In this document: in pieces, positions 3,547 through 64,000 of the stretch
Numbering within the stretch: position 1 is the stretch's first letter
Layout: every line of letters starts with the position of its first letter
DNA from: Pegea sp. RAD2-039
Lineage: Eukaryota; Chordata; Thaliacea; Salpida; Salpidae
Reading direction: 5' to 3'
Assembly (NCBI GenBank): GCA_034620365.1
Contig: JAQGEQ010000318.1
Location: 310,001-374,000, forward strand
Length of the DNA: 64,000 nucleotides
The notes under the pieces: generated by a model
Told to the model about the DNA's origin: nothing
The model's database searches: none
Seen by the model: only the letters and a program-made list of their open reading frames with translations
Translations under genes and position numbers: made by a program

Positions 3547-6458
3547 ATGGTAGATAGATTAAATAGCAAAGTTGTTTTCGATTCAATTATGACACCTACA
3601 GATGATAAAAGGTTAGTAGAATTTTGTTTCTTCACTTAAAATTGTTCGCTAAGTAAACTTACTTTAAATTCACTTTTTATTTTAAATAAAAACAGATTAG
3701 AAAATTATTTATGTTGCATCTAAAAAGATTAACAACTTAAATTTTATCAATTTTAAATTGTAATTATTATTTTTCTAATTTGATTTAGAGTCATTTTAGT
3801 GTTACTCAATCATTTAAAAGAATTTAAATTTTATTGTTTTATTTATTTATAAATTTAAGAACTGAAATAAGTAATTGTGATTTTAATTATTCACTTTTTT
3901 TATTTTATCAAACTTGTTTCTAATTCTTTAATTATAATTTGATACTAAAGTAAATTATACTTTTAATAATTTTAGAGATGAAGTTTCGGAAGTTGATAAT
4001 TGTACAAATCTTCATCAACTTAAACTGAATGACTCTTCTGAAGATTCTCAGGTTCATGATGTTAGCATCAAAGTGAAATTAAATGAATTTGAAAGAAGTT
4101 TCAATTGTGACAAACGTATATTAGTTGCTGCTTCACCTTATTTTAAAGCAATGTTTCGTGGTAAGTTAGATTCAAGATTCAACTTCAATTGTGAAAATAA
4201 CTGAATATACAAAAAACTATTTGAATTTATTAAGGTGGTGGATTTAAAGAATCATATTCTCGTGAAGTTACCTTAAATGAGGTAGACCCAAATGTATTCT
4301 CTGATCTTCTAGGATACATTTACACAAACAAAATACAAATCAGTGAAGAAAATGTTGAGAAACTGATGATTGCAGATTCCATATTTCAAATAAATGGCTT
4401 AGAGAAGTTATGTAGCAAGTAAGCTAGTTTTATAATTCAGTTTCTTTCAATAGTTTTTGTAATTATACTTTATCAATTACAGCTTTTTGGAAAGTCAAAT
4501 AGAGATTTCCAACTGCTTCGAATTTGCAACATTTGCTGAGAATTATGGATTTTTGGAGCTTTCAACGAAAATAGGAAAATTTATTGGAAAAAACTTTATA
4601 GAAGTAAGAAAATAGAGAAATGTTATTTTCTTGACTAAAACATTTTAAGTAGAAAGATTTTTTCTACTTTATCAAGCTTAAATATTTATGAAATATTTAC
4701 TTGCTTCGTTATTTCTACTGATTTTGTTCTTTTCATATTTAATAAGAAAAAGTTTTTGATTGATCTCATGATTTTTACCAGATTTCAAAAAGTGATGAAT
4801 TCAAATTACAACCAGACTCTGTAATTTCTAAAATAATTTCAAAAGATGAGCTTCATGTGATTTGTGAATCCCAAGTATTCAATGCTCTTTTAGATTGGAT
4901 CAAATATGATTTAACTTCAAGAAAACATTGTTTAAATAAGTTAATTAAGAACGTAAGTATCTAGAAACTATAAAGTTGTAGACTTGTGAGTATAAAATTG
5001 TGATTTCTCTAGGTACGATGCTATTTAATAAATCCAAATTTTATTTCGATGAAATTAGAAAGTTGTAATGTAATTAGAGATACTTGTTATGAATATCTCA
5101 GCAAGGTCCTTGATGACCTCAAAGCTTACATCCCAATTGAAAGTAAGCCAAGACAACTTGATATTCGGCAGGTAAGATTATTTAATTAAATACTTTTCAC
5201 TTCAACCACTGACATATGACGTCACAGGTTATCTACATGGTTGATGGATTCAATAGATCTGATGACAAATCTTTGGAAAGTCAAAAGTTCCGTTTGTCTG
5301 AAACGGATGTTTGGTTTAAACTCCCAAAGATATGTCTTCGAAAAACTTGGGGATCTGTTGTCATCAACGGTTTCATTTACATGTTAGACTGGAATGGTGA
5401 TATGGAAAGGTTAGAAGCATGAAGCAAATGATGACATCATCATTGCAAACTAAATATGACGTCATCACATTTCTAGATACGACCCAATTTTAAATGAGTG
5501 GAAGAAGTGCAAAAGTTTAGAAGATAACTTTTATTTAGACGGTCGAATATGTTGGCCGAGATTTGGAGTTATTGAAAATGAATTGTACATTTTTCAAGAT
5601 TATTATGAAGATTATTATGAAGATTATTATTCAGAATATGATGAACATATTCATTATTTAAGAAAAACTAGAATAGTAAAGTGAGTGATGAAATGAGATT
5701 TCAACCAAAACTTCATTTGCCAAAAACTATTATGTTATTTCCAGATACGATCCGATCACTGATGAATGGACGCAAAGAGCTTCATTAAATAGATATCGTA
5801 ACTTTTTCGATTGTGCTGTCTTCAACCGGATGTTGTATGTTGTCGGTGGTTACGAATTGAATAACATAGTTGCTCGTGTGGAGAAATATGATCCACAGAG
5901 GGACGAATGGAGTTCTGTAAAATCGATGTTGACACCTCGAAGTGATCTAGGTATTTGTTGATGACGTCACGATGACGTTTTGATCTTATGATGGTAACTA
6001 ATTTTAAAATCATTATAGATGTAGTCACACTTGGCAACTATATCTACGCCATTGGTGGTGGGAATTACGGAGAAGAAAGTTTAAAAACTGTTGAAAGATA
6101 CGATGTCCTCAATGATAATTGGGAGTTTGTAGCAAGTATGAAATATGCAAGATACTTCCCAAAAGCTGTTGTCTTTAATAAGAAGATTTATGTTTTTGGT
6201 AAAACTTTTCTTATGTTTCGAATTGAAAAACTTTTTAATAAAATTTTTATGATGTTTACAATAATTTGCATAATTGTGATGAGCTTGTTGATTGTTTCAG
6301 GAGGTTATTATGGAAGAGATGATTTAGAAATTGTCGAATGTTACAATGAAGTAACAAATGAATGGAAAGAAGTTGCAAGAACGAATGAATGGGTTAGAGA
6401 AGTCATAGTCAGCTATCAACCATGTGTACCTGACATATGTGTAAATTTCCCATTTTAA
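3547..6458 (+). CDS. K1: BTB-BACK-Kelch protein (KLHL type), 11 exons, 604 aa
   Basis: Exons: 3547-3611, 3976-4160, 4235-4418, 4483-4603, 4782-4952, 5013-5171, 5228-5409, 5477-5680, 5745-5950, 6019-6198 and 6301-6458. All introns are GT-AG and the joined frame is open for 604 codons, the usual KLHL length. BTB spans about residues 49-150 (HDVSIKV, CDKRILVAASPYF, FRGGGFKES). BACK spans about 150-290 (NFLESQIEISNC, DELHVICESQVFNALLDWIK). About five to six Kelch blades follow, with the YDP-x-x-EW and VVGG patterns. Proteins of this family normally recruit substrates to CUL3 ubiquitin ligase in the cytoplasm or nucleus; that role here is inferred. K1 has K where the other copies have E in the SPYFEAMF segment. 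Exon 8 carries a (DYYE) repeat. The ATG is the first in a conserved context and is shared by all copies. Confidence 0.9.
5217..5224 (+). promoter_or_regulatory. TGACGTCA palindrome at the 3' end of intron 6
   Basis: A perfect CRE-type palindrome sits three bases before the exon 7 acceptor. Further copies lie in intron 7 (5457-5464) and intron 9 (5962-5969), and the same three sites recur in each full gene of the array. CRE octamers bind CREB/ATF factors in animals. Their location inside small introns could equally reflect a genome-wide repeat or a splicing role. The read-through of this intron end (MTSQ) is not a real protein start. Confidence 0.45.
5598..5634 (+). repeat. 12-nt coding repeat in K1 exon 8
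   Basis: Three consecutive near-copies of a GATTATTATGAA unit encode DYYEDYYEDYY inside a Kelch loop. The number and form of units differ between genes: one in K2 and K3, about four in K4 and K6, none in K5 and K7. All length changes keep the frame, so the loop length is a variable coding minisatellite. Confidence 0.8.
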
Positions 6459-7592: not shown

Positions 7593-8604
7593 TACATCAT
7601 CATTGCAAACTAAATATGACGTCATCACATCTCTAGATACAACCCAATTTCAAATGAGTGGAAGAAGTGCAAAAGTTTAGACGATAAATTGCGTATGACG
7701 AAAATTGAAGTTATTGAAAATGAATTGTACATTCTTGAAGATTATTATGATTTTGAAGCAGATGATGATGATTCTGATTATTTGAAATAAACAGATTGAT
7801 AAAGTGAGAGATGAAATGACATTTCAACCAAAACTTCATTTGCCAAAAACTATTATTTTATTTCCAGATACGATCCGATCACTGATGAATGGACGCAAAG
7901 AGCTTCATAAAATAGAAACTGTCTCTTTTTCGGTTGTGCTGTCTTCAACCGGATGTTGTATGTTGTCGGTGGTTACGGTTTGTATAACCCAGTTTCTTGT
8001 GTGGATAAATATGATCCAGAGAGGGACGAATGGAGTTCTGTAAAATGGATGTTGACACCTCGAAATGCTCTAGGTAGTTGCTGATGACTTCACGATGACG
8101 TTTTGATCTTATGATGATAACTAATTATAAAATCATTAAAGATGTAGTCACGCTTGGCAACTATATCTACGCCATTGGTGGTGGGAATTACAAAGAACAT
8201 TTAAAGACTGTTGAAAGATATGTGTCCTCAACGATAATTGGGAGTTTGTAGCAAGTATGAAATATGCAATAGACTTCCCAAAAGCTATTGTCTTTAATAA
8301 GAAGATTTATGTTTTTGGTAAAACTTTTCTTATGTTTGGAATTGAAAAACTTTTTAATAAAATTTTTATGATGTTTACAATAAGTTGCATAATTGTGATG
8401 AGCTTGCTGATTGTTTCAGGAGCTTTACTTGATGCTGATGATGAAGAAAATGCAGGTCAAGAATGTTATGTTAAAATTGTCGAATGTTACAATGAAGTAA
8501 CAAATGAATGGAAAGAAGTTGCAAGAACGAATGAAAGGTTTTATCAAGTCATAGTCAGTTATCAACCATGTGTACCTGACATATGTGAAAATTTCCCATT
8601 TTAA
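7593..8604 (+). pseudogene. psiK: 5'-truncated Kelch pseudogene (exons 8-11)
   Basis: Starting inside intron 7, this copy has recognisable exon 8 (7637 to about 7803), exon 9 (7868-8073), exon 10 (8142-8317) and exon 11 (8420-8604). It lacks exons 1-7, so it has no BTB, no BACK and no promoter. It is also broken internally. Exon 8 runs into TAA at 7788-7790. Exon 9 has TTA changed to TAA at 7908-7910. Exon 10 has lost one base near 8221, where GATATGATGTCC reads GATATGTGTCC. Exon 11 carries about 24 extra bases encoding an acidic stretch (DADDEENAGQE). Its exon 9 loop (YGLYNPVSCV) matches K7 rather than its neighbours. Confidence 0.9.
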
Positions 8605-13305: not shown

Positions 13306-16184
13306 ATGGTAGATAGATTAAATAGCAAAGTTGTTTTCGATTCAATTATGCCACCTACAGATGATAAAAGGTTAGTAGAATTTTGTGTCTTCACTTAAAA
13401 TTGTTCGCTAAGTAAACTTACTTTAAATTCACTTTTTATTTAAAATAAAAACAGATTAGAGAATTATTTATGTTGCATTTAAAAAGATTAATAACTTAAA
13501 TTTCATCGATTTTAACTTGTAATTATTATATTTCTAATTTGTTTTAGAGTCATTTTAGTGTTACTCAATCATTTAGAAGAATTTAAATTTTATTGTTTTT
13601 TTTATTTATAAATTTAAGAACTGAATTAAGTATTTTTGATTTTAATTATTCACTTTTTTATTTTATCAAACTTGTTTCTAATTCTTTAATTATAATTTGA
13701 TACTAAAGTAAATTATACATTTAATAATTTTAGAGATGAAGTTTCGGAAGTTGATAATTGTACAAATCTTCATCATCTTAAACTGAATGACTCTTCTGAA
13801 GATTCTCAGATTCATGATGTTAGCATCAAAGTGAAATTAAATGAATTTGAAAGAAGTTTCAATTGTGACAAACGTATATTAGTTGCTGCTTCACCTTATT
13901 TTGAAGCAATGTTTCGTGGTAAGTTAGATTCAAGTTTCAACTTCAATTGTAAAAATAACTGAATATATCAACAAAAAACTATTTGAATTTATTAAGGTGG
14001 TGGATTTAAAGAATCATATTCTCGTGAAGTTACCTTAAATGAGGTAGACCCAAATGTATTCTCTGATCTTCTAGGATACATTTACACAAACAAAATACAA
14101 ATCAATGAAGAAAACGTTGAGAAACTGATGATTGCAGATTCCATATTTCAAATAAATGGTTTAGAGAAGTTATGTAGCAAGTAAGCTAGTTTTATAATTC
14201 AGTTTCTTTCAATAGTTTTTGTAATTATACTTTATCAATTACAGCTTTTTGGAAAGTCAAATTGAAATTTCCAACTGTATTGGATTTTCAACATTTGCTG
14301 AGAAATATGGATTTTTGGAGCTTTCAACGAAAATAGGAAAATTTATTGGAAAAAACTTTATAGAAGTAAGAAAATAGAGAAATGATATTTTCTTGGCTAA
14401 AACATTTTAAGTAGAAAGAGTTTTTCTACTTCTTCAAACTTAAATATTTATGAAATATTTACTTGCTTCGTTATTTCTACTGATTTTGTTCTTTTCATAT
14501 TTAATAAGAAAAAGTTTTTGATAGATTTCATGATATTTACCAGATTTCAAAAAGTGATGAATTCAAATTACAACCAGACTCTGTAATTTGTAAAATAATT
14601 TCAAAAGATGAGCTTCATGTGATTTGTGAATCCCAAGTATTCAATGCTCTTTTAGATTGGATCAAATATGATTTACCTTCAAGAAAACATTGTTTAAATA
14701 AGTTAATTAAGAACGTAAGTATCTAGAAACTATAAAGTTGTAGACTTGTGAGTATAAAATTGTGATTTCTCTAGGTACGATGCCATCTGATAAATCCAAA
14801 TTTTATCTCGATGAAATTAGAAAGTTGTGATGTAATTAGAGATACTTGTTATGAGTATCTCAGCAAGGTCCTTGATGACCTCAAAGCTTACATCCCAATT
14901 GAAAGTAAGCCAAGACAACTTGATATTCGGCAGGTAAGATTATTTAATTAAATACTTTTCACTTCAACCACTGACATATGACGTCACAGGTTATCTACAT
15001 CATTGATGGATTCAATAGATCTGATGACAAATCTTTGGAAAGTGCAAAGTTCTGTTTGTCTGAAACGGATGTTTGGTTTAAACTCCCAAAGATATGTCTT
15101 CGAAACACTTGGGGATCTGTTGTCATCAACAGTTTCATTTATATGTTAAAGTGGAATGGTGATTTGGAAAGGTTAGAAGCATGAAGCAAATGATGACATC
15201 ATCATTGCAAACTAAATATGACGTCATCACATTTCTAGATACGACCCAATTTTAAATGAGTGGAAGAAGTGCAAAAGTTTAGAAGATGGCTTGTATTTAG
15301 ACGGTCGAATATGTTGGCCGAGATTTGGAGTTATTGAAAATAAATTGTACATTTTTCAAGATTATTATGATGATTCTCATTATTTAAGAAATACTAGAAT
15401 AGTAAAGTGAGTGATGAAATGACATTTCAACCAAAACTTCATTTGCCAAAAACTATTTTGTTATTTTCAGATACGATCCGATCACTGATGAATGGACAGA
15501 AAGAGCTTCATTAAATAGATATCGTGACTTTTTCGGTTGTGCTGTCTTCAACCGGATGTTGTATGTTATCGGTGGTTGCGATTTGAATAACATAGTTGCT
15601 CGTGTGGAGAAATATGATCCTCAGAGGGACGAATGGAGTTCTGTAAAGTCGATGTTGACACCTCGAAGTCATCTAGGTATTTGTTGATGACGTCACGATG
15701 ACGTTTTGATCTTATGATGATAACTAATTCTAAAATCATTAAAGCTGTAGTCACGCTTGGCAACTATATCTACGCCATTGGTGGTTTGAATGACAGAGGA
15801 TTTTTAAAGACTGTTGAAAGATACGATGTCCTCAATGATAATTGGGAGTTTGTAGCAAGTATGAAATATGCAAGAGGATTTCCAAAAGCTGTTGTATTTA
15901 ATAAGAAGATTTATGTTTTTGGTAAAACTTTTCTTATGTTTGGAATTGAAAAACTTTTTGATAAAATTTTTATGATGTTTACAATAATTTGCATAATTGT
16001 GATGAGCTTGTTGATTGTTTCAGGAGGTTATTATGGAAGAGAAGATGATGTTAAAATTGTCGAATGTTACAATGAAGTAACAAACGAATGGAAAGAAGTT
16101 GCAAGAACGAATGAATGGGTTAGAGAAGTCATAGTCAGCTATCAACCATGTGTGCCTGACATATGTGTAAATTTCCCATTTTAA
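13306..16184 (+). CDS. K2: BTB-BACK-Kelch protein (KLHL type), 592 aa
   Basis: Exons: 13306-13370, 13734-13918, 13997-14180, 14245-14365, 14544-14714, 14775-14933, 14990-15171, 15239-15406, 15471-15676, 15745-15921 and 16024-16184. The joined frame is open for 592 codons. BTB and BACK are intact, with one conspicuous change: LPSRKHC replaces LTSRKHC at the end of the BACK helix encoded by exon 5. Exon 8 is 36 nt shorter than in K1 and has a single DYYD unit. Loop sequences specific to this copy are CLRNTWGS (exon 7), GGLNDRGFL and ARGFPK (exon 10). Exon 9 ends in SHL and exon 10 starts with AVV instead of DVV. Ligase-adaptor function is inferred from the domain order. Confidence 0.9.
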
Positions 16185-22555: not shown

Positions 22556-25426
22556 ATGGTATATAGATTAAATAGCAAAGTTGTTTTCCATTCAATTATG
22601 CCACCTACAGATGATAAAAGGTTAGTAGAATTTTGTGCCTTCACTTAAAATTGTTCGCTAAGAAAACTTACTTTAAGTTCACTTTTTATTTAAGATAAAC
22701 ACAGATTAGAAAATTATTTATGTTGCATCTAAAAAGATTAATAACTTAAATTTTATCGATTTTAACTTGTAATTATTATATTTCTAATTTGTTTTAGAGT
22801 CATTTTAGTGTTACTCAATCATTTAAAAGAATTTAAATTTTATTGTTTTATCTATTTATAAATTTAAGAACTGAATTAAGTATTTTTCATTTTAATTATT
22901 CACTTTTTTTATTTTTATCAAACTTGTTTCTAATTCTTTATTTATAATTTGATACTAAAGTAAATTATACTTTTGATAATTTTAGAGATGAAGTTTCGGA
23001 AGTTGATAATTGTACAAATCTTCATCAACTTAAACTGAATGACTCTTGTGAAGATTCTCAGATTCATGATGTTAGCATCAAAGTGAAATTAAATGGATTT
23101 GAAAGAAGTTTCAATTGTGACAAACGTATATTAGTTGCTGCTTCACCTTATTTTGAAGCAATGTTTCGTGGTAAGTTAGATTCAAGATTCAACTTCAATT
23201 GTGAAAATAACTGAATATACAAAAAAATATTTGAATTTATTAAGGTGGTGGATTTAAAGAATCATATTCTCGTGAAGTTACCTTAAATGAGGTAGACCCA
23301 AATGTATTCTCTGATCTTCTAGGATACATTTACACAAACAAAATACAAATCAATCAAGAAAACGTTGAGAAACTGATGATTGCAGATTCCATGTATCAAA
23401 TAAATGGTTTAGAGAATTTATGTAGCAAGTAAGCTAGTTTTATAATTCAGTTTCTTTCAATAGTTTTTGTAATTATACTTTATCAATTACAGCTTTTTGG
23501 AAAGTCAAATAGAGATTTCCAACTGTATTGGATTTGCAACGTTTGCTGAGAATTATGGAATTTTGGAGCTTTCAACCAAAATTGAAAAATTTATTGGAAA
23601 AAACTTTATAGAAGTAAGAAAATAGAGAAATGTTATTTTCTTGGCTAAAACATTTTAAGTAGAAAGATTTTTTCTACTTCATCAAACTTAAATATTTATG
23701 AAATATTTACTTGCTTCGTTATTTCTACTGATTTTGTTCTTTTCATATTTAATAAGAAAAAGTTTTTGATTGATTTCATGATATTTACCAGATTTCAAAA
23801 TGTGAACAATTTAAATTACAACCAGACTCTGTAATTTGTAAAATAATTTCAAAAGATGAGCTTCATGTGATTTGTGAATCCCAAGTATTCAATGCTCTTT
23901 TAGATTGGATCAAATATGATTTAACTTCAAGAAAACATTTTTTAAATAAATTAATTAAGATTGTAAGTATCTAGAAACTATAAAGTTGTAGACTTGTGAG
24001 TATAAAATTGTGATTTCTCTAGGTACGATGCCATTTTATAAATCCAAATTTTATTTCGACGAAATTAGAAAGTTGTGATGTAATTAGAGATACTTGTTAT
24101 GAATGTCTCAGCAAGGTCCTCGATGACCTCAAAGCTTTCATCCCAATTGAAAGTAAGCCAAGACAACTTGATATTCGGCAGGTAAGATTATTTAATTAAA
24201 TACTTTTCACTTCAACCACTGACATATGACGTCACAGGTTATCTACATCATTGATGAATCCGATAGATCTGATGAGAAATCTTTGAAAAGTGCAAATTTC
24301 CGTTTGTCTGAAACGGATGTTTGGTTTAAACTCCCAAAGCTGTGTCTAGGAAATATTTCAAGATCTGTTGTCATCAATGGTTTCATTTATATGTTAAAGA
24401 GGAATGGTGATTTGGAAAGGTTAGAAGCATGAAGCAAATGATGACATCATCATTGCAAACTAAATATGACGTCATCACTTTTCTAGATACAACCCAATTT
24501 TAAATGAGTGGAAGAAGTGCAAAAGTTTAGAAGATAACTTGTATTTAGACGGTCGAATGTGTTGGCCGACATTTGGAGTTATTGAAAATGAATTGTACAT
24601 TCTTAAAGATTATTATGAAGATTTTCATTATTTAAAAAAAACTAGAATAGTAAAGTGAGTGATGAAATGAGATTTCAACCAAAACTTCATTTGCCAAAAA
24701 CTATTATGTTATTTCCAGATACGATCCGATAACTGATAAATGGAGGCAAAGAGCTTCATTAAATAGATATTGTATCTATTTCGGTTGTGCTGTCTTCAAC
24801 CGGATGTTGAATGTTGTCGGTGGTTACGATTTGAATAACATAGTTGCTAGTGTGGATAAATATGATCCACAGAGGGACGAATGGAGTTCTGTAAAATCGA
24901 TGTTGACACCTCGAAGTGATTTAGGTACTTGCTGATGACGTCACGATGACGTTTTGATCATATGATGATAACTAATTTTAAAATCATTAAAGATGTAGTC
25001 ACGCTTGGCAACTATATCTACGCCATTAGTGGTTATAATGGAGAAGAATATTTAAAGACTGTTGAAAGATATGATGTCCTCAATGATAATTGGGAGTTTG
25101 TAGCAAGTATAAAATATGCAAGGAGATGCCCAAAAGCTGTTGTCTTTAATAAGAAGATTTATGTTTTTGGTAAAACTTTTCTTATGTTTCGAATTGAAAA
25201 ACTTTTTGATAAAATTTTTATGATGTTTACAATAATTTGCATAATTGTGATGAACTTGTTGATTGTTTCAGGAGGTTATTATGGAATAGATGATAAAATT
25301 GTCGAATGTTACAATGAAGTAACAAATGAATGGAAAGAAGTTGCAAGAACGAAAGAAAAGATTAATCAAGTCATAGTCAGTTATCAACCATGTGTACCTG
25401 ACATATGTGAAAATTTCCCATTTTAA
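22556..25426 (+). CDS. K3: BTB-BACK-Kelch protein (KLHL type), 590 aa
   Basis: Exons: 22556-22620, 22986-23170, 23245-23428, 23493-23613, 23792-23962, 24023-24181, 24238-24419, 24487-24654, 24719-24924, 24993-25169 and 25272-25426. The frame is open for 590 codons. It is the most divergent full copy. Changes include MVYRL at the N-terminus, KIEKFIGKN and SKCEQFKL in BACK, ESDRSDEKSLKS at the first Kelch strand, KRNGD in place of KWNGD, and RMLNVVGG in place of RMLYVVGG. One blade reads AISGYNGEEYL, so a usual Kelch Gly-Gly pair has become Ser-Gly. Exon 11 is 3 nt shorter and has TKEKINQ in the last loop. No frame-breaking change is seen, so it may be functional. Confidence 0.88.
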
Positions 25427-31803: not shown

Positions 31804-34724
31804 ATGGTAGATAGATTAAATAGCAAAGTTGTTTTCCATTCAATTATGCCACCTACAGATGATAAAAGGTTAGTAGAATTTTGTGCCTTGACTTAAAATT
31901 GTTCGCTAAGAAAACTTACTTTAAATTCACTTTTTATTTAAAATAAACACAGATTAGAAAATTATTTTTGTTGCATCTAAAAAGATTAATAACTTAAATT
32001 TTATCGATTTTAACTTGTAATTATTATATTTCTAATTTGTTTTAGAGTCATTTTAGTGTTACTCAATCATTTAAAAGAATTTAAATTTTATTGTTTTATT
32101 TATTTATAAATTTAAGAACTGAATTAAGTATTTGTAATTTTAATTATTCACTTTTTTATTTTTATCAAACTTGTTTCTAATTCTTTATTTATAATTTGAT
32201 ACTAAAGTAAATTATACTTTTGATAATTTTAGAGATGAAGTTTCGGAAGTTGATAATTGTACAAATCTTCATCATCTTAAACTGAATGATTCTTCTGAAG
32301 ATTCTCAGGTTCATGATGTTAGCATCAAAGTGAAATTAAATGGATTTGAAAGAAGTTTCAATTGTGACAAACGTATATTAGTTGCTGCTTCACCTTATTT
32401 TGAAGCAATGTTTCGTGGTAAGTTAGATTCAAGTTTCAACTTCAATTGTGAAAATAACTGAATATACAAAAAACTATTTGAATTTATTAAGGTGGTGGAT
32501 TTAAAGAATCATATTCTCGTGAAGTTACCTTAAATGAGGTAGACCCAAATGTATTCTCTGATCTTCTAGGATACATTTACACAAACAAAATACAAATCAA
32601 TGAAGAAAACGTTGAGAAACTGATGATTGCAGATTCCATATTTCAAATAAATGGCTTAGAGAAGTTATGTAGCAAGTAAGCTAGTTTTATAATTCAGTTT
32701 CTTTCAATAGTTTTTGTAATTATACTTTATCAATTACAGCTTTTTGGAAAGTCAAATAGAGATTTCCAACTGCTTCGAATTTGCAACATTTGCTGAGAAT
32801 TATGGATTTTTGGAGCTTTCAACGAAAATAGGAAAATTTATTGGAAAAAACTTTATAGAAGTAAGAAAATAGAGAAATGTTATTTTCTTGGCTAAAACAT
32901 TTTAAGTAGAAAGATTTTTTCTACTTCATCAAACTTAAATATTTATGAAATATTTACTTGCTTCGTTATTTCTACTGATTTTGTTCTTTTCATATTTAAT
33001 AAGAAAAAGTTTTTGATTGATTTCATGATTTTTACCAGATTTCAAAAAGTGATGAATTCAAATTACAACCAGATTCTGTAATTTGTAAAATAATTTCAAA
33101 AGATGAGCTTCATGTGATTTGTGAATCCCAAGTATTCAATGCTCTTTTAGATTGGATCAAATATGATTTAACTTCAAGAAAACATTGTTTAAATAAGTTA
33201 ATTAAGAACGTAAGTATCTAGAAACTATAAAGTTGTAGACTTGTGAGTATAAAATTGTGATTTCTCTAGGTACGATGCCATTTAATAAATCCAAATTTTA
33301 TTTCGATGAAATTAAAAAGTTGTGATGTAATTAGAGATACTTGTTATGAATATCTCAGCAAGGTCCTTGATGACCTCAAAGCTTACATCCCAATTGAAAG
33401 TAAGCCAAGACAACTTGATATTCGGCAGGTAAGATTATTTAATTAAATACTTTTCACTTCAACCACTGACATATGACGTCACAGGTGATCTACATCGTTG
33501 ATGGATTCAATAGATCTGATGACAAATCTTTGGAAAGTGCAAAGTTCTGTTTGTCTGAAACGGATGTTTGGTTTAAACTCCCAAAGATATGTTTTTCATG
33601 TATTTCAAGATCTGTTGTCATCAATGGTTTCATTTATATGTTCAAGTGGAATGGTGATATGGAAAGGTTAGAAGCATGAAGCAAATGATGACATCATCAT
33701 TGCAAACTAAATATGACGTCATCACATTTCTAGATACGACCCAATTTTAAATGAGTGGAAGAAGTGCAAAAGTTTAGAAGATAACTTGTATTTAGACGGT
33801 CGAATATGTCGGCCGAGATTTGGAGTTATTGAAAATGAATTGTACATTTTTAAAGATTATTATGAAGATTATTTTGAAGATTATTATGAAGATTATTATT
33901 TAGAATATGATGATGAATTTCATTATTTAAAAAAAACTAGAATAGTAAAGTGAGTGATGAAATGAGATTTCAACCAAAACTTCATTTGCCAAAAACTATT
34001 ATGTTATTTCCAGATACGATCCGATCACTGATGAATGGACGCAAAGAGCTTCATTAAATAGATATCGTAACTTTTTCGGTTGTGCTGTCTTCAACCGGAT
34101 GTTGTATGTTGTCGGTGGTTACGATTTGAATTACATACGTGCTAGTGTGGATAAATATGATCCACAGAGGGACGAATGGAGTTCTGTAAAATCGATGTTG
34201 ACACCTCGAAGTGATCTAGGTATTTGCTGATGACGTCACGATGACGTTTTGATCTTATGATGATAACTAATTCTAAAATCATTAAAGATGTAGTCACGCT
34301 TGGCAACTATATCTACGCCATTGGTGGTTGGAATGAAGTAGGAAGTTTAAAGACTGTTGAAAGATATGATGTCCTCAATGATAATTGGGAATTTGTAGCA
34401 AGTATGAAGTTTGCAAGAGAAAATCCAAATGCTGTTGTCTTTAATAAGAAGATTTATGTTTTTGGTAAAACTTTTCTTATGTTTGGAATTGAAAAACTTT
34501 TTAATAAAATGTTTATGATGTTTACAATAATTTGCATAATTGTGATGAGCTTGTTGATTGTTTCAGGAAGTCATTCTGGAAGAGAAAATGTTAAAATTGT
34601 CGAATGTTACAATGAAGTAACAAATGAATGGAAAGAAGTTGCAAGAACGAATGAAAGTATTGATCAAGTCATAGTCAGTTATCAACCATGTGTACCTGAC
34701 ATCTGTGTAAATTTCCCATTTTAA
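31804..34724 (+). CDS. K4: BTB-BACK-Kelch protein (KLHL type), 607 aa
   Basis: Exons: 31804-31868, 32233-32417, 32492-32675, 32740-32860, 33039-33209, 33270-33428, 33485-33666, 33734-33949, 34014-34219, 34288-34464 and 34567-34724. The frame is open for 607 codons. The longer exon 8 (216 nt) encodes an extended acidic and aromatic loop (KDYYEDYFEDYYEDYYLEYD). Other copy-specific loops are CFSCISRS (exon 7), YDLNYIRASV (exon 9), GGWNEVGSL and ARENPN (exon 10), and GSHSGREN and TNESIDQ (exon 11). The GSHSG start of exon 11 replaces the usual GGY. Its exon 8 and exon 9 blocks match K6 closely, which suggests block exchange between units. It is followed by an S1 spacer. Confidence 0.9.
33855..33902 (+). 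repeat. 12-nt coding repeat in K4 exon 8
   Basis: Four near-copies of the GATTATTATGAA unit lie in frame within a Kelch loop. K6 has the same number at 49840-49887. This is the longest form of the variable loop in the window. Confidence 0.8.
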
Positions 34725-47793: not shown

Positions 47794-50712
47794 ATGGTAG
47801 ATAGATTAAATAGCAAAGTTGTTTTCGATTCAATTATGCCACCTACAGATGATAAAAGGTTAGTAGAATTTTGTGTCTTCACTTAAAATTGTTCGCTAAA
47901 TAAACTGACTTTAAATTCACTTTTTATTTTAAATAAAAACAGATTAGAAAATTATTTATGTTGCATCTAAAAAGATTAATAACTTAAATTTTATCAATTT
48001 TAACTTGTAATTATTATATTTATAATTTGTTTTAGAGTCATTTTAGTGTTACTCAATCATTTAAAAGAATTTAAATTTTATTGTTTTATTTATTTATAAA
48101 TTTAAGAACTGAATTAAGTATTTGTAATTTTAATTATTCACTTTTTTTATTTTATCAAACTTGTTTCTGATTCTTTATTTTTAATTTGATATTAAATTAT
48201 ACTTTTGATAATTTTAGAGATAAAGTTTCAGAAGTTGATATATGTACAAATCTTCATCAACTTAAACTGAATGACTTTTCTGAAGATTCTCAGATTCATG
48301 ATGTTAGCATCAAAGTGAAATTAAATGAATTTGAAAGAACTTTCAATTGTGACAAACGTATATTAGTTGCTGCTTCACCTTATTTTGAAGCAATGTTTCG
48401 TGGTAAGTTAGATTCAAGATTCAACTTCAATTGTGAAAATAACTGAATATACAAAAAACTATTTGAATTTATTAAGGTGGTGGATTTAAAGAATCATATT
48501 CTCGTGAAGTTACCTTAAATGAGGTAGACCCAAATGTATTCTCTGATCTTCTAGGATACATTTACACAAACAAAATACAAATCAATGAAGAAAACGTTGA
48601 GAAACTGATGATTGCAGATTCCATCTATCAAATAAATGGTTTAGAGAAGTTATGTAGCAAGTAAGCTAGTTTTATAATTCAGTTTCTTTCAATAGTTTTT
48701 GTAATTATACTTTATCAATTACAGCTTTTTGGAAAGTCAAATAGAGATTTCCAACTGCTTCGAATTTGCAACATTTGCTGAGAATTATGGATTTTTGGAG
48801 CTTTCAACGAAAATAGGAAAATTTATTGGAAAAAACTTTATAGAAGTAAGAAAATAGAGAAATATTATTTTCTTGGCTAAAACATTTTAAGTAGAAAGAT
48901 TTTTTCTACTTCATCAAGCTTAAATATTTATGAAATATTTACTTGCTTCGTTATTTCTACTGATTTTGTTCTTTTCATATTTAATAAGAAAAAGTTTTTG
49001 ATTGATCTCATGATTTTTACCAGATTTCAAAAAGTGATGAATTCAAATTACAACCAGACTCTGTAATTTGTAAACTAATTTCTAAAGATGAGCTTCATGT
49101 GATTTGTGAATCCCAAGTATTCAATGCTCTTTTAGATTGGATCAAATATGATTTAACTTCAAGAAAACATTGTTTAAATAAGTTAATTAAGAACGTAAGT
49201 ATCTAGAAACTATAAAGTTGTAGACTTGTGAGTATAAAATTGTGATTTCTCTAGGTACGATGCCATTTAATAAATCCAAATTTTATTTCGAGGAAATTAA
49301 AAAGTTGTGATGTAATTAGAGATACTTGTTATGAGTATCTCAGCAAGGTCCTTGATGACCTCAAAGCTTACATCCCAATTGAAAGTAAGCCAAGACAACT
49401 TGATATTCGGCAGGTAAGATTATTTAATTAAATACTTTTCACTTCAACCACTGACATATGACGTCACAGGTGATCTACATCGTTGATGGATTCTATAGAT
49501 CTGATGACAAATCTTTGGAAAGTGTAAAGTTCTGTTTGTCTGAAACGGATGTTTGGTTTAAACTCCCAAAGATATGTTTTTCACGTATTTCAAGATCTGT
49601 TGTCATCAACGGTTTCATTTATATGTTAAAGTGGAATGGTGATATGGAAAGGTTAGAAGCATGAAGCAAATGATGACATCATCATTGCAAACTAAATATG
49701 ACGTCATCACATTTCTAGATACGACCCAATTTTAAATGAGTGGAAGAAGTGCAAAAGTTTAGAAGATAAATTGTATTTAGACGGTCGAATGTGTTGGCCG
49801 AGATTTGGAGTTATTGAAAATAAATTGTACATTTTTAAAGATTATTATGAAGATTATTTTGAAGATTATTATGAAGATTATTATTTAGAATATGATGATG
49901 AATTTCATTATTTAAAAAAAACTAGAATAGTAAAGTGAGTGATGAAATGAGATTTCAACCAAAACTTCATTTGACAAAAACTATTATGTTATTTCCAGAT
50001 ACGATCCGATCACTAATGAATGGACGCAAAGAGCTTCATTAAATAGATATCGTAACTTTTTCGGTTGTGCTGTCTTCAACCGGATGTTGTATGTTGTCGG
50101 TGGTTACGATTTGAATTACATACGTGCTAGTGTGGAGAAATATGATCCACAGAGGGACGAATGGAGTTCTGTAAAATCGATGTTGACACCTCGACGTGAT
50201 CCAGGTACTTGCTGATGACGTCACGATGACGTTTTGATCTTATGATGATAACTAATTCTAAAATCATTAAAGATGTAGTCACGCTTGGCAACTATATCTA
50301 CGCCATTGGTGGTCGGAGTGAAGGAGAATTTTTAAAGACTGTTGAAAGATACGATGTCCTCAATGATAATTGGGAGTTTGTAGCAAGTATGAAATATGCA
50401 AGAGGATTCCCAAAAGCTGTTGTCTTTAATAAGAAGATTTATGTTTTTGGTAAAACTTTTCTTATGTTTGGAATTGAAAAACTTTTTAATAAAATTTTTA
50501 TGATGTTTACAATAATTTGCATAATTGTGATGAACACTTTGATTGTTTCAGGAGGTTATTCTGGAAGAGAAGATGTTGTTAAAATTGTCGAATGTTACAA
50601 TGAAGTAACAAATGAATGGAAAGAAGTTGCAAGAACGAATGAATGTATTGATCAAGTCATAGTCAGCTATCAACCATGTGTACCTGACATATGTGTAAAT
50701 TTCCCATTTTAA
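47794..50712 (+). CDS. K6: BTB-BACK-Kelch protein (KLHL type), 608 aa
   Basis: Exons: 47794-47858, 48218-48402, 48477-48660, 48725-48845, 49024-49194, 49255-49413, 49470-49651, 49719-49934, 49999-50204, 50273-50449 and 50552-50712. The frame is open for 608 codons. The N-terminal linker differs from the other copies (RDKVSEVDICTN, LNDFSED), and the BTB reads FERTFNCDK. Exon 8 has the long four-unit DYYE loop as in K4. Exon 9 ends in RRDP, using CCAG before the donor where most copies have CTAG. Loops: CFSRISRS, GGRSEGEFL, ARGFPK, GGYSGREDVV and TNECIDQ. All splice sites are intact. Confidence 0.9.
49840..49887 (+). repeat. 12-nt coding repeat in K6 exon 8
   Basis: Four in-frame GATTATTATGAA-type units, the same arrangement as in K4, encoding an acidic tyrosine-rich loop. 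Confidence 0.8.
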
Positions 50713-56561: not shown

Positions 56562-59401
56562 ATGGTAGATAGATCAAATAGCAAAGTTGTTTTCGATTCA
56601 ATTATGCCACCTACAGATGATAAAAGGTTAGTAGAATTTTGTGTCTTCACTTAAAATTGTTCGCTAAGTAAACTTACTTTAAATTCACCTTTTATTTAAA
56701 ATAAACACAGATTACAAAAATTATTTATGTTGCATCTAAAAAGATTAATAACTTAAATTTTATCAATTTTATATTGTAATTAGTATATTTCTAATTTGTT
56801 TTAGAGTCATTTTAGTGTTACTCAATTATTTAGAAGAATTTAAATTTTATTGTTATATTTATTTATAACTTTAAGAACTGAAATAAATATTTGTGATTTT
56901 AATTATTCACTTTTTTTATTTTTATCAAACTTGTTTCTAATTCTTTAATTATAATTTGATACTAAAGTAAATTATACTTTTAATAATTTTAGAGATGAAG
57001 TTTCGGAAGTTGATAATTGTACAAATCTTCATCAACTTAAACTGAATGACTCTTCTGAAGATTCTCAGGTTCATGATGTTAGCATCAAAGTGAAATTAAA
57101 TGAATTTGAAAGAAGTTTCAATTGTGACAAACGTATATTAGTTGCTGCTTCACCTTATTTTGAAGCAATGTTTCGTGGTAAGTTAGATTCAAGTTTCAAC
57201 TTCAATTGTAAAATAGCTGAATATATGAACAAAAAACTATTTGAATTTATTAAGGTGGATTTAAAGAATCATCTTCTCGGGAAGTTACCTTAAATGAGGT
57301 AGACCCAAATGTATTCTCTGATCTTCTAGGATACATTTACACAAACAAAATACAAATCAATGAAGAAAACGTTGAGAAACTGATGATTGCAGATTCCATG
57401 TATCAAATAAATGGTTTAGAGAAGTTATGTAGCAAGTAAGCTAGTTTTTTCAAATCAGTTTCTTTCAATAGTTTTTGTAATTATACTTTATCAATTACAG
57501 CTTTTTGGAAAGTCAAATAGAGATTTCCAACTGTATTGGATTTTCAACATTTACTGAGAATTATGGATTTTTGGAGCTTTCAACGAAAATAGGAAAATTT
57601 ATTGAAAAAAACTTTATAGAAGTAAGAAAATAGAGAAATGTTATTTTCTTGACAAAAACATTTTAAATAGAAAGATTTTTTCTACTTTATCAAACTTAAA
57701 TATTTATGAAATATTTACTTGCTTTGTTATTTCCGCTGATTTTGTTCTTTTCATATTTAATAAGAAAAAGTTTTTGATTGATCTCATGATATTTACCAGA
57801 TTTCTAAATGTGATGAATTCAAATTACAACCAGACTCTGTAATTTGTAAACTAATTTCTAAAGATGAGCTTCATGTGATTTGTGAATCCCAAGTATTCAA
57901 TGTTCTTTTAGATTGGATCAAATATGATTTAACTTCAAGAAAACATTGTTTAAATAAGTTAATTAAGAACGTAAGTATCTAGAAACTATAAAGTTGTAGA
58001 CTTGTGAGTATAAAATTGTGATTTCTCTAGGTACGATGCCATTTAATAAATCCAAATTTTATTTCGATGAAATTAGAAAGTTGTGATGTAATTAGAGATA
58101 CTTGTTATGAATGTCTCAGCAAGGTCCTCGATGACCTCAAAGCTTTCATCCCAATTGAAAGTAAGCCAAGACAACTTGATATTCGGCAGGTAAGATTATT
58201 TAATTAAATACTTTTCACTTCAACGACTGACATATGACGTCACAGGTGATCTACATCGTTGATGCATCTTATAGATCTTATGAGAAATCTTTGGAAAGTG
58301 TAAAGTTCCGTTTGTCTGAAACAGATGTTTGGTTTAAACTTCCGAAGATATGTCTTCCAGGAGCTGAGAGATCTGTTGTCATCAACGGTTTCATTTATAT
58401 TATAAAGATGAATGGTCATTTGGAAAGGTTAGAAGCATGAAGCAAATGATGACATCATCATTGCAAACTAAATATGACGTCATCACATTTCTAGATTCAA
58501 CCCAATTTTAAATGAGTGGAAGAAGTGCAAAAGTTTAAACGGTCGATTGTTTTGGCCGAAAATGGAAGTTGTTCAAAATGAATTGTATCTTTTTCAAGGT
58601 GGTATTGAAAACAGATTGATGAAGTGAGTGATGAAATGAGATTTCAACCAAAACTTTATATTCCAAAAACTCTTTTGTTATTTCCAGATACGATCCGATC
58701 ACTGATGAATGGACGCAAAGAGCTTCATTAAATAGATTCCGTAACTTTTTCGGTTGTGCTGTCTTCAACCGGATGTTGTATGTTGTCGGTGGTTACGGTT
58801 TGTATAACCCAGTTTCTTGTGTGGAGAAATATGATCCACAGAGGGACGAATGGAGTTCTGTAAAATCGATGTTGACACCTCAAAGTTATCTAGGTATTTT
58901 CTGATGACGTCACGATGACGTTTTGATCTTATGATGATAACTAACTCTAAAATCATTAAAGCTGTAGTCACACTTGGCAACTATATCTACGCCATTGGTG
59001 GTTTGAATTACGGAGAAGGTTCAAAAACTGTTAAAAGATACGATGTCCTCAATGATAATTGGGAGTTTGTAGCAAGTATGAAATATGCAAGATACTTCCC
59101 AAAAGCTGTTGTCTTTAATAAGAAGATTTATGTTTTTGGTAAAACTTTTCTGATGTTTGGAATTGAAAAACTTTTTAATAAAATTTTTATGATGTTTACA
59201 ATAATTTGCATAATTGTGATGAACTTGTTGATTGTTTCAGGAGGTTTATCTGTAAGAGATGATGTTGTTAAAATTGTCGAATGTTACAATGAAGTAACAA
59301 ATGAATGGAAAGAAGTTGCAAGAACGAATGAATGGATTGATCAAGTCATAGTCAGTTATCAACCATGTGTACCTGACATATGTGTAAATTTCCCATTTTA
59401 A
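56562..59401 (+). CDS. K7: BTB-BACK-Kelch protein (KLHL type), 578 aa
   Basis: Exons: 56562-56626, 56993-57177, 57255-57435, 57501-57621, 57800-57970, 58031-58189, 58246-58427, 58495-58623, 58688-58893, 58962-59138 and 59241-59401. The frame is open for 578 codons. It is the shortest complete copy. Exon 3 begins GTGGATTT where the others have GTGGTGGATTT, so the BTB reads FRGGFKESSSR with one glycine fewer. Exon 8 is the short type (129 nt) with FQGGIE and no acidic repeat. It starts with ATTCAAC, so the blade motif is RFNP instead of RYDP. Loops: CLPGAERS, IKMNGHL, YGLYNPVSCV and GGLNYGEGSK. The exon 9 loop matches psiK, and exon 8 matches K5. Followed by S1. Confidence 0.9.
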
Positions 59402-63522: not shown

Positions 63523-64000
63523 ATGGTAGATAGATTAAATAACAAAGTTGTTTTCGATTCAATTATGCCACCTACAGATGATAAAAGGTTAGTAGAATTT
63601 TGTGTCTTCACTTAAAATTGTTCGCTAAGTAAACTTACTTTAAATTCACCTTTTATTTAAAATAAACACAAATTAGAAAATTATTTATGTTGCATTTAAA
63701 AAGATTAATAACTTAAATTTTATCGATTTTAACTTGTAATTATTATATTTCTTAAATGTTTTAGAGTCATTTTAGTGTTACTCAATTATTTAAAAGAATT
63801 TAAATTTTATTGTTTTATTTATTTATAAATTTAAGAACTGAATTAAGTATTTTTGATTTTAATTATTCACTTTTTTTATTTTATCAAACTTGTTTCTAAT
63901 TCTTTATTTATAATTTGATACTAAAGTAAATTATACTTTTGATAATTTTAGAGATGAAGTTTCGGAAGTTGATAATTGTACAAATCTTCATCAACTTAAA
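63523..64000 (+). CDS. K8: BTB-BACK-Kelch gene, 5' end only
   Basis: Exon 1 (63523-63587) and the first part of exon 2 (from 63952) are present. They encode the same N-terminus as the other copies (MVDRLNNKVVFDS, then RDEVSEVDNCTNLHQLK), with N for S at residue 7. The window ends before the BTB domain, so integrity cannot be judged. Confidence 0.85.

Follow-up and report, generated by a model that had tools for sequence, protein, structure and literature searches.

Diversified Kelch loops on a constant BTB-BACK part in a tandem gene array of the salp Pegea: a putative germline repertoire of CUL3 substrate receptors

Introduction

The F-box and MATH-BTB adaptor families of nematodes are said to have been described by Thomas in 2006. 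According to one paper that cites this work, strong positive selection acts in Caenorhabditis elegans on the domains with which both families bind their substrates, but not on those that bind the cullin, and the adaptors may serve to detect foreign proteins (PMC4334554); according to another, F-box, MATH and Kelch_1 domains are over-represented among the genes which microsporidia induce in this nematode (PMC4063957). The present analysis concerns an array of BTB-BACK-Kelch genes of the salp Pegea sp. RAD2-039 (GenBank assembly GCA_034620365.1, surveyed as 105.7 Mb in 387 contigs) and starts from a stretch of 64,000 nucleotides, called here the window (contig JAQGEQ010000318.1, further C116, positions 310001-374000, G+C 25.8%), which holds the gene K1 and the copies K2-K7 (K1-K7 are c08-c14 in the numbering of the array). 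Comparison of the copies gives good support to diversifying selection on the ligand face of the predicted Kelch propeller, joined to a constant BTB-BACK part. The likeness, as far as these papers show it, is that the families of cullin adaptors are large, turn over fast and are positively selected only where they bind the substrate; the defence role proposed there belongs to the nematode genes. The salp family differs in carrying a Kelch propeller on BTB-BACK, in being composed of tandem short-tract mosaics, and in the amplification and truncation of CUL3. The resemblance is best taken as a parallel only: the nematode spliced leader SL1 (up to 1 mismatch) gave no match, and neither did Col_cuticle_N, for which the control likewise matched nowhere, a result that does not show absence. 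The same holds for Chitin_bind_4 and its control, and COX1 too was without a match.

Closest in architecture are KEAP1 and other KLHL proteins, with which the salp genes share the domain order, six alignable blades, the phi-x-E motif in BTB and the BC and DA loops of the top face as ligand site. To our knowledge, KLHL genes elsewhere are mostly single, conserved and provided with fixed partners, whereas here a hypervariable family of more than 100 is met. In major histocompatibility complex (MHC) class I genes the exons of the ligand site are more diverged than the adjoining introns through selection and exchange, and in the salp the ligand-site exons outdiverge the introns as well; however, MHC variation is allelic, and here it lies between paralogous tandem copies of a predicted intracellular ligase receptor. 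The S-locus F-box (SLF) genes of plants are under positive selection, have S-RNase as a known partner and occupy one locus. They are likewise tandem ligase adaptors, acting in non-self recognition according to a portion of PMC6649718, with F-box/SCF there and BTB/CUL3 here. Expanded Kelch families with suggested roles such as defence are mentioned for a bdelloid rotifer, an invertebrate with a small genome, in a passage of PMC3846280 which contains no analysis of BTB-BACK-Kelch loops; the spliced leader of bdelloids did not turn up in the salp at up to 3 mismatches. No hypervariable BTB-Kelch family was met in the titles and beginnings of abstracts that were searched for one.

Selection on the Kelch loops

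Pfam recognises in the K1 protein a BTB domain (residues 39-150), a BACK domain (156-254) and four Kelch_1 repeats, each above its cut-off, and the top sequence match in PDB is KEAP1, across BTB-BACK and the last three blades. The BTB carries F-K-E-S, a form of phi-x-E, which we take to be the CUL3-binding motif of this domain; it is present in 23 out of 23 BTB-bearing copies of C116 and is gone, with the whole BTB, in three copies reduced to the Kelch part. By domain order and motif the genes are assigned to the KLHL (BTB-BACK-Kelch) family, and binding to CUL3 is predicted.

The ratio of nonsynonymous to synonymous divergence (dN/dS) was obtained from Nei-Gojobori counts. The main set comprised 34 of the 41 Kelch copies of C116 and a second contig, C97; L033, L036 and L042 were left out for trouble with frame or exon ends, and c15, c26, L038 and L040 as near-duplicates. 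In this set the loop residues gave 2.49 (95% interval 1.77-3.72) and the remaining Kelch residues 0.38 (0.23-0.63), the neutral value for loop codons under the intron mutation spectrum being 0.92-0.95. The loop value was 3.12 (2.03-5.28) in the closest 5% of pairs, and 2.20 (1.47-3.56) for a loop set of 70 residues placed from KEAP1. The excess was met again on other contigs: ten copies of C14, C81, C153, C264 and C23, for which the loop set was fixed beforehand, gave 1.55 (1.16-2.06) in the loops versus 0.40 elsewhere, and 1.47 (1.05-2.17) with the set placed from KEAP1. These ten, and a further four considered below, come from 20 fetched copies, among which L046 was dropped for a frameshift and L050 and L058 as near-duplicates, and L059-L061 were placed in no dN/dS group. 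Per-residue entropy of the C116/C97 copies follows that of the other contigs (Spearman 0.71), a correlation to which shared descent and exchange contribute. The BTB-BACK half is constrained, with dN/dS of 0.47 (0.32-0.73) for exons 1-6 in 21 copies; the BTB stretch alone gave 0.77 on little divergence.

The original prediction, made on K1-K7, had proposed that differences cluster in Kelch loops, and named three, of exons 7, 10 and 11. All 21 loop strings which it quoted are present in the spliced copies, and within K1-K7 dN/dS is 3.06 (bootstrap 1.41-8.68, 21 codons) for the three named loops and 0.34 for Kelch residues outside all loop sets. The YAIGG called conserved before the exon 10 loop is found in all of the seven but K3, which reads YAISG. 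The variation is not restricted to the named loops: each of the 12 loops predicted as BC or DA has between 15 and 31 variants, as counted in 38 of the 41 C116/C97 copies with near-duplicates included. Among these copies the exon 7 patch has 17 variants (dN/dS in the main set of 34 copies 2.56), the exon 10 loop, with its last L excluded, 24 (4.0 in the main set), and the last loop of exon 11, read as TNEWVRE in K1, 19 (9.2 in the main set, on dS of only 0.023). The combination of loops is different in each of the 38 copies; the median pair has no loop in common, and a few near-duplicate pairs have 11 of the 12.

Positions on the propeller were assigned by homology, blades 4-6 from a phmmer alignment and Gly603 and blades 1-3 by hand, and the ligand-contact residues of KEAP1 were taken from the available part of PMC4506958. 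If residues with entropy above 1.2 bits are called hypervariable, 10 of the 14 contact equivalents fall into this class, versus 54 of 309 residues overall; the mean entropy of the contact equivalents is 1.32 versus 0.53, and none of 100,000 random sets was as high. By the same homology, 51 of the 54 hypervariable residues are located in loops rather than in buried strands, and the turns of the opposite (bottom) face have dN/dS of 0.26 and 0.35.

Divergence along the gene was measured in 23 of the 26 C116 copies (the set for exon matrices has 22 copies, and those for dN/dS of exons 1-6, intron sites and linkage 21). Exons 7-11 differ by a mean pairwise 11.6, 11.9, 7.8, 8.1 and 8.2%, introns 7-10 by 0.5, 5.2, 4.0 and 4.2%, exons 1-6 by 1.5-4.4% and introns 1-6 by 1.7-3.8%; diversity is 3.4% in the pooled introns without intron 7 (21 copies) and 5.2% in the 600 bases upstream of the start codon (26 copies). 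It is thus the Kelch exons that stand out, being two to three times as diverged, and not the introns. The introns are indeed less diverged than the loops, as had been claimed from intron 10. Of the 102 bases of this intron, exactly 2 are different in K1 and K2, and 0-5 across the 21 pairs of K1-K7. Synonymous divergence in the Kelch exons (0.08-0.11) is above intron divergence, presumably because linkage drags along the near neighbours of loops held apart by selection. The introns are an impure neutral clock, and therefore the claim of selection rests on dN/dS.

The array and exchange between its copies

The array of C116 consists of 26 copies in the same orientation, from C116:254224 to 468525, and ends 1 kb short of the contig end; besides it, a 62-base fragment of exon 7 lies on the opposite strand. 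A further 15 copies were fetched from C97, all on one strand and reaching near that contig's own end, with one additional tag on the other strand at 104.6 kb, and C97 could be a continuation of the C116 array. The family is dispersed across many contigs and is not a single locus. With up to 3 mismatches allowed, a 47-base tag of intron 7 is matched at 177 places in the genome; for a tag of the BACK exon the number is 133, and neither reversed control has any match. These numbers, the 26-copy array and the presence of broken copies characterise a large tandem family with birth and death of genes. Within C116, 23 of the 26 copies keep all 11 exons and 23 are free of premature stops, and the summed Kelch exons are in frame in 37 of 41 copies of the two contigs and 16 of 20 of the others, some of the exceptions being cut ends. 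Apart from this, c06 (C116:294804-297692) and c26 (C116:465637-468525), 171 kb from each other, are 99.86% identical over 2949 bases, which points to a recent long-range duplication inside the array.

Linkage between sites falls steeply with distance: from an r2 of 0.47 for sites 1-5 bases apart it drops to about 0.15 (6-30 bases) and 0.09 (31-60), stays at 0.08-0.09 out to 400 bases, and beyond 1.5 kb is 0.05, the same as the shuffled background of 0.05. Because of this fall no single tree fits the copies. Distance matrices of different exons are barely correlated (Mantel r no higher than 0.20 for 48 of the 55 pairs, maximum 0.43), and the nearest relative switches from exon to exon, with 3.2 different ones across five exons in 41 copies. 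Adjacent copies differ in the Kelch exons by 7.6% and copies more than 10 places apart by 7.9%. The fast decay of linkage, and neighbours which are no closer than distant copies, argue for frequent short-tract exchange, and on their sequence the copies are short-tract mosaics with exchange across the whole array. In the BTB-BACK half linkage decays at least as fast as in the Kelch half; there is therefore no sign of aimed diversification, and exchange targeted at the variable exons, as programmed diversification would have it, was not found in the comparison of linkage between the two halves. What stays different would be decided by selection. It can be said that the array is an unusually clear case of paralogs brought near linkage equilibrium by short-tract exchange, with their binding loops held apart by selection.

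Kelch-only copies and amplified CUL3

K5 and two other copies of C116 have a part of exon 2 fused to the end of exon 6, with intact frame and splice sites, which leaves proteins of 352-372 residues. The junction which deletes BTB-BACK has six matches in the genome, of which C116 has three, C97 two and C14 one; four are exact and two have one mismatch. The frame is open in all four junction copies checked, the fourth being L034 (Kelch part). These four Kelch-only copies have loop dN/dS of 2.92 (1.75-5.69), a value that is not independent given exchange with complete copies. They would bind targets without recruitment of CUL3.

A cullin profile search of the genome, in which 71 of 94 candidates were scored, gave a second amplified family, CUL3. 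For the copy at C92:178.9-181.0 kb the PDB match to CUL3 reaches 635 bits versus 256 for CUL4A; the apparently full-length CUL3 gene at C278:90.5-93.1 kb is named through its near identity to this copy. Among the candidates scored, the Pfam match stops by model position 473 of 620 in 12 copies on C92, C134 and C96, and a shared early stop ends all 12 truncated copies examined. In the next 3 kb after one tested truncated copy there is no credible match to the C-terminal exons. The intervening exons are open in the two truncated copies read, L064 and L066. In its first exon the C92 copy departs from the full-length gene at 12 of 55 residues; over the eight exons that follow, the figure is 16 of 353 (Fisher P 6e-5). 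Within the first exon lies a stretch of 23 residues, identical in the host full-length gene and in human CUL3, at six of which the C92 copy differs; presumably this stretch belongs to the BTB-binding surface of CUL3. A second group of four copies (C203, C369 and C370) has an open first exon, and an additional CUL3 fragment was noticed at C92:615.4 kb. The C-terminal half of CUL3 binds RBX1, and a truncated CUL3 would bind BTB adaptors without the RBX1-binding half. Such copies may serve the receptor array, hold it in check or act in conflict with it.

Introns and palindromes

Intron 7 is nearly invariant. It has 3 segregating sites in 67, versus 18.4% in the other introns pooled (P 8e-4, for a post hoc pick from ten introns), and the divergence of the exons on either side is about 12%. 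Among the matches listed for its 47-base tag, 54 are exact, on eight contigs. RNA structure was considered as a reason for this invariance, and folding of the intron gave z of -1.9 for K1 and of -3.1 and -0.2 for two diverged copies. In 13 of 20 copies fetched from other contigs, identity to K1 is 88-100% for introns 6-10 and just 79-88% for exon 7; seven copies, of C182/C50/C198 and C240/C75/C336, have lower identity to K1 in introns 6-10 and exon 7 alike. At least nine small contigs (C120, C130, C131, C133, C138, C143, C144, C149 and C158) carry an identical intron-7 tag with the acceptor AG changed to AT, perhaps a repeated set of broken copies. Intron 10, if translated, gives a hydrophobic stretch. 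Its interpretation as a retained in-frame membrane segment was rejected: 47 of 61 copies have it in frame and without a stop, but most copies of the diverged groups do not, and the open frame is probably due to chance.

The palindrome TGACGTCA occurs 22 times in the window versus 0.37 expected, at sites adjoining the Kelch exons. In nine diverged copies its conservation, compared with the rest of the intron in which it lies, is 0.89 v 0.92, 0.92 v 0.86 and 0.89 v 0.82, and it is missing from some copy groups. These palindromes resemble what we take to be the M26/CRE recombination hotspot of fission yeast. The hotspot reading was abandoned, as the motif is not clearly better conserved than its surroundings and exchange in the Kelch half is no faster than in the BTB-BACK half.

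Discussion

Probably, though with a good deal of room for doubt, the window belongs to a large germline repertoire of substrate receptors for CUL3 ligases, the diversity of which would be due to selection and gene conversion. In such a repertoire the nearly constant BTB-BACK half is predicted to dock on CUL3, and the top-face loops of the six-bladed Kelch propeller would be kept different between copies by diversifying selection. Each copy would bind its own target protein and deliver it to CUL3 for ubiquitylation, Kelch-only copies would bind targets without delivering them, and the pressure to differ would come from fast-changing target proteins, most plausibly those of intracellular parasites, viruses or selfish elements. 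With a Kelch query of 133 residues no viral relatives were confirmed in viral_contigs. The original prediction of a diversifying recognition system plugged into a constant CUL3 adaptor agrees with the selection on loops at KEAP1 contact equivalents and with the constrained BTB-BACK part, and the pattern on which it was based proved even clearer than claimed; the pathogen or self proteins which it proposed would be candidate targets. The CUL3 side is not simply constant, since CUL3 itself is amplified in truncated form.

Several observations weigh against the repertoire as described. The whole Kelch part has dN/dS of 1.17 (0.87-1.61), indistinct from 1, in the 34 copies; one of the 12 loops, DA5, has only 0.67; the loop set defined by eye was chosen with the variation in view, and with the set placed from KEAP1 the contrast is weaker, the residues outside it having 0.72 (0.48-1.12). 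The KEAP1 equivalents of blades 1-3 rest on hand alignment, and the equivalents of Y334, R336, R380 and N382 remain below the cut for hypervariability (0.96, 0.38, 0.99 and 0.51). The introns which serve as baseline are partly constrained. Three of the 26 C116 copies (c04, c05 and c17) have a premature stop, c25 has lost a splice donor, and the stop codon of c01 lies outside the alignment cut. Finally, in four copies of C182/C50/C198 the loop dN/dS is 0.94 (0.50-2.12), and these copies lend no support to selection there.

The last value, the invariance of intron 7 and the conservation of introns across contigs are what would be expected if constraint on the loops were relaxed, so that they drift freely, with introns held by splicing needs. 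This account is already disfavoured and is highly improbable, as loop dN/dS is above the neutral range in two separate copy sets and the Kelch exons stay in frame in the great majority of copies (37/41 and 16/20). Hardly more credit is due to a scaffold role in place of degradation, in which the propellers would bind varied cytoskeletal or structural partners in a tissue-specific manner: KLHL proteins presumably have structural roles too, but dozens of similar genes varying mainly at the ligand face, with 0 of 38 sharing all loops, fit stable host partners poorly, and this role is judged improbable. Least probable of all, and only just worth naming, is a dedicated diversifying mechanism, by which gene conversion of the Kelch exons would be programmed or driven by hotspots and might take place in the soma. 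The three TGACGTCA palindromes beside the Kelch exons of each window copy and the strong mosaicism would suit it, yet linkage decays as fast or faster in the constant BTB-BACK half, and the palindromes are about as conserved as the rest of their introns and lost in some groups.

More serious is the possibility that the same repertoire is driven not by parasites but by intragenomic or mate conflict, such as self or gamete recognition, toxin-antidote systems or transposon control, in the way of the tandem F-box genes of self-incompatible plants. Tandem ligase adaptors do act in plant non-self recognition according to PMC6649718, and the co-amplified truncated CUL3 and Kelch-only copies look like competing or opposing parts of one pathway; nevertheless there is in the sequence no pointer to gametes or to a linked partner, and the family sits on many contigs rather than at one locus, so that this driver is considered unlikely. 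Returning to the repertoire of CUL3 receptors directed at fast-changing targets, a bolder version can be offered tentatively, as a possibility that we would not bet on: an antibody-like, inherited, intracellular repertoire of more than 100 CUL3 receptors, with 12 loops reassorted by gene conversion and with Kelch-only receptors and truncated CUL3 as counterparts, which could form a tunable recognise-and-destroy network or reflect a conflict over CUL3. If the repertoire is real, a family of cullin adaptors has become a diversified recognition system in an animal without a match to nematode SL1, and it is built on a propeller that is well understood and has a ligand pocket open to modelling and exchange. 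Recognition of foreign proteins by means of ubiquitin would then become directly testable, as loop, partner and outcome are all measurable, and the Kelch-only receptors and truncated CUL3 copies are ready natural controls.

Features of the window and related loci

The positions of the genes, loops and introns discussed above are collected in Table 1, with the loci of the CUL3 copies.

Table 1. Positions of the described features, given in the window unless contigs are named
Feature	Position	Strand	Remark
K1, complete BTB-BACK-Kelch gene, 11 exons	3547..6458	+	ten introns, all GT..AG; single open protein of 604 residues
K1 exons 1-6	3547-3611, 3976-4160, 4235-4418, 4483-4603, 4782-4952, 5013-5171	+	
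K1 exons 7-11	5228-5409, 5477-5680, 5745-5950, 6019-6198, 6301-6458	+	
Exons 7-11 of K1 (Kelch part; six blades predicted)	5228..6458	+	hand alignment to KEAP1
Exon 7 patch, CLRKTWGS	5333..5356	+	predicted DA loop of blade 1; contains the KEAP1 Ser363 equivalent
Intron 7	5410..5476	+	almost without variation in the family (3 variable sites of 67, 21 copies)
Exon 10 loop, GNYGEESL	6060..6083	+	predicted BC loop of blade 5
Intron 10, 102 bases	6199..6300	+	
Last loop of exon 11, NEWVRE	6384..6401	+	predicted DA loop of blade 6; KEAP1 Ser602/Gly603 equivalents
TGACGTCA palindrome	5217, 5457, 5962 in K1, with equivalents in each window copy		one each in introns 6, 7 and 9
3' Kelch fragment after K1	7637..8604	+	exons 8-11 only, exon 8 partial; blastn exon matches 77-94%
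K2 (c09), complete copy	13306..16184	+	
K3 (c10), complete copy	22556..25426	+	
K4 (c11), complete copy	31804..34724	+	
K5 (c12), without BTB-BACK, 352 residues	39625..41404	+	part of exon 2 fused to end of exon 6, in frame
K6 (c13), complete copy	47794..50712	+	
K7 (c14), complete copy	56562..59401	+	one codon fewer in exon 3
c15, start of next copy	63523..64000	+	runs on beyond the window
Amplified CUL3 loci L064, L066-L088, L093	C92, C134, C96		early stop shared by the 12 copies examined
Second CUL3 group, L089-L092	C203, C369, C370		

Two minor observations concern the Kelch exons. The loops of exons 10 and 11 in the 3' fragment that follows K1 resemble those of the copy c04. Exon 8 is of unequal length in the copies (117-216 bases); the differences are multiples of three, the frameshifted copies excepted, and the exon holds a repeated YEDYY unit.

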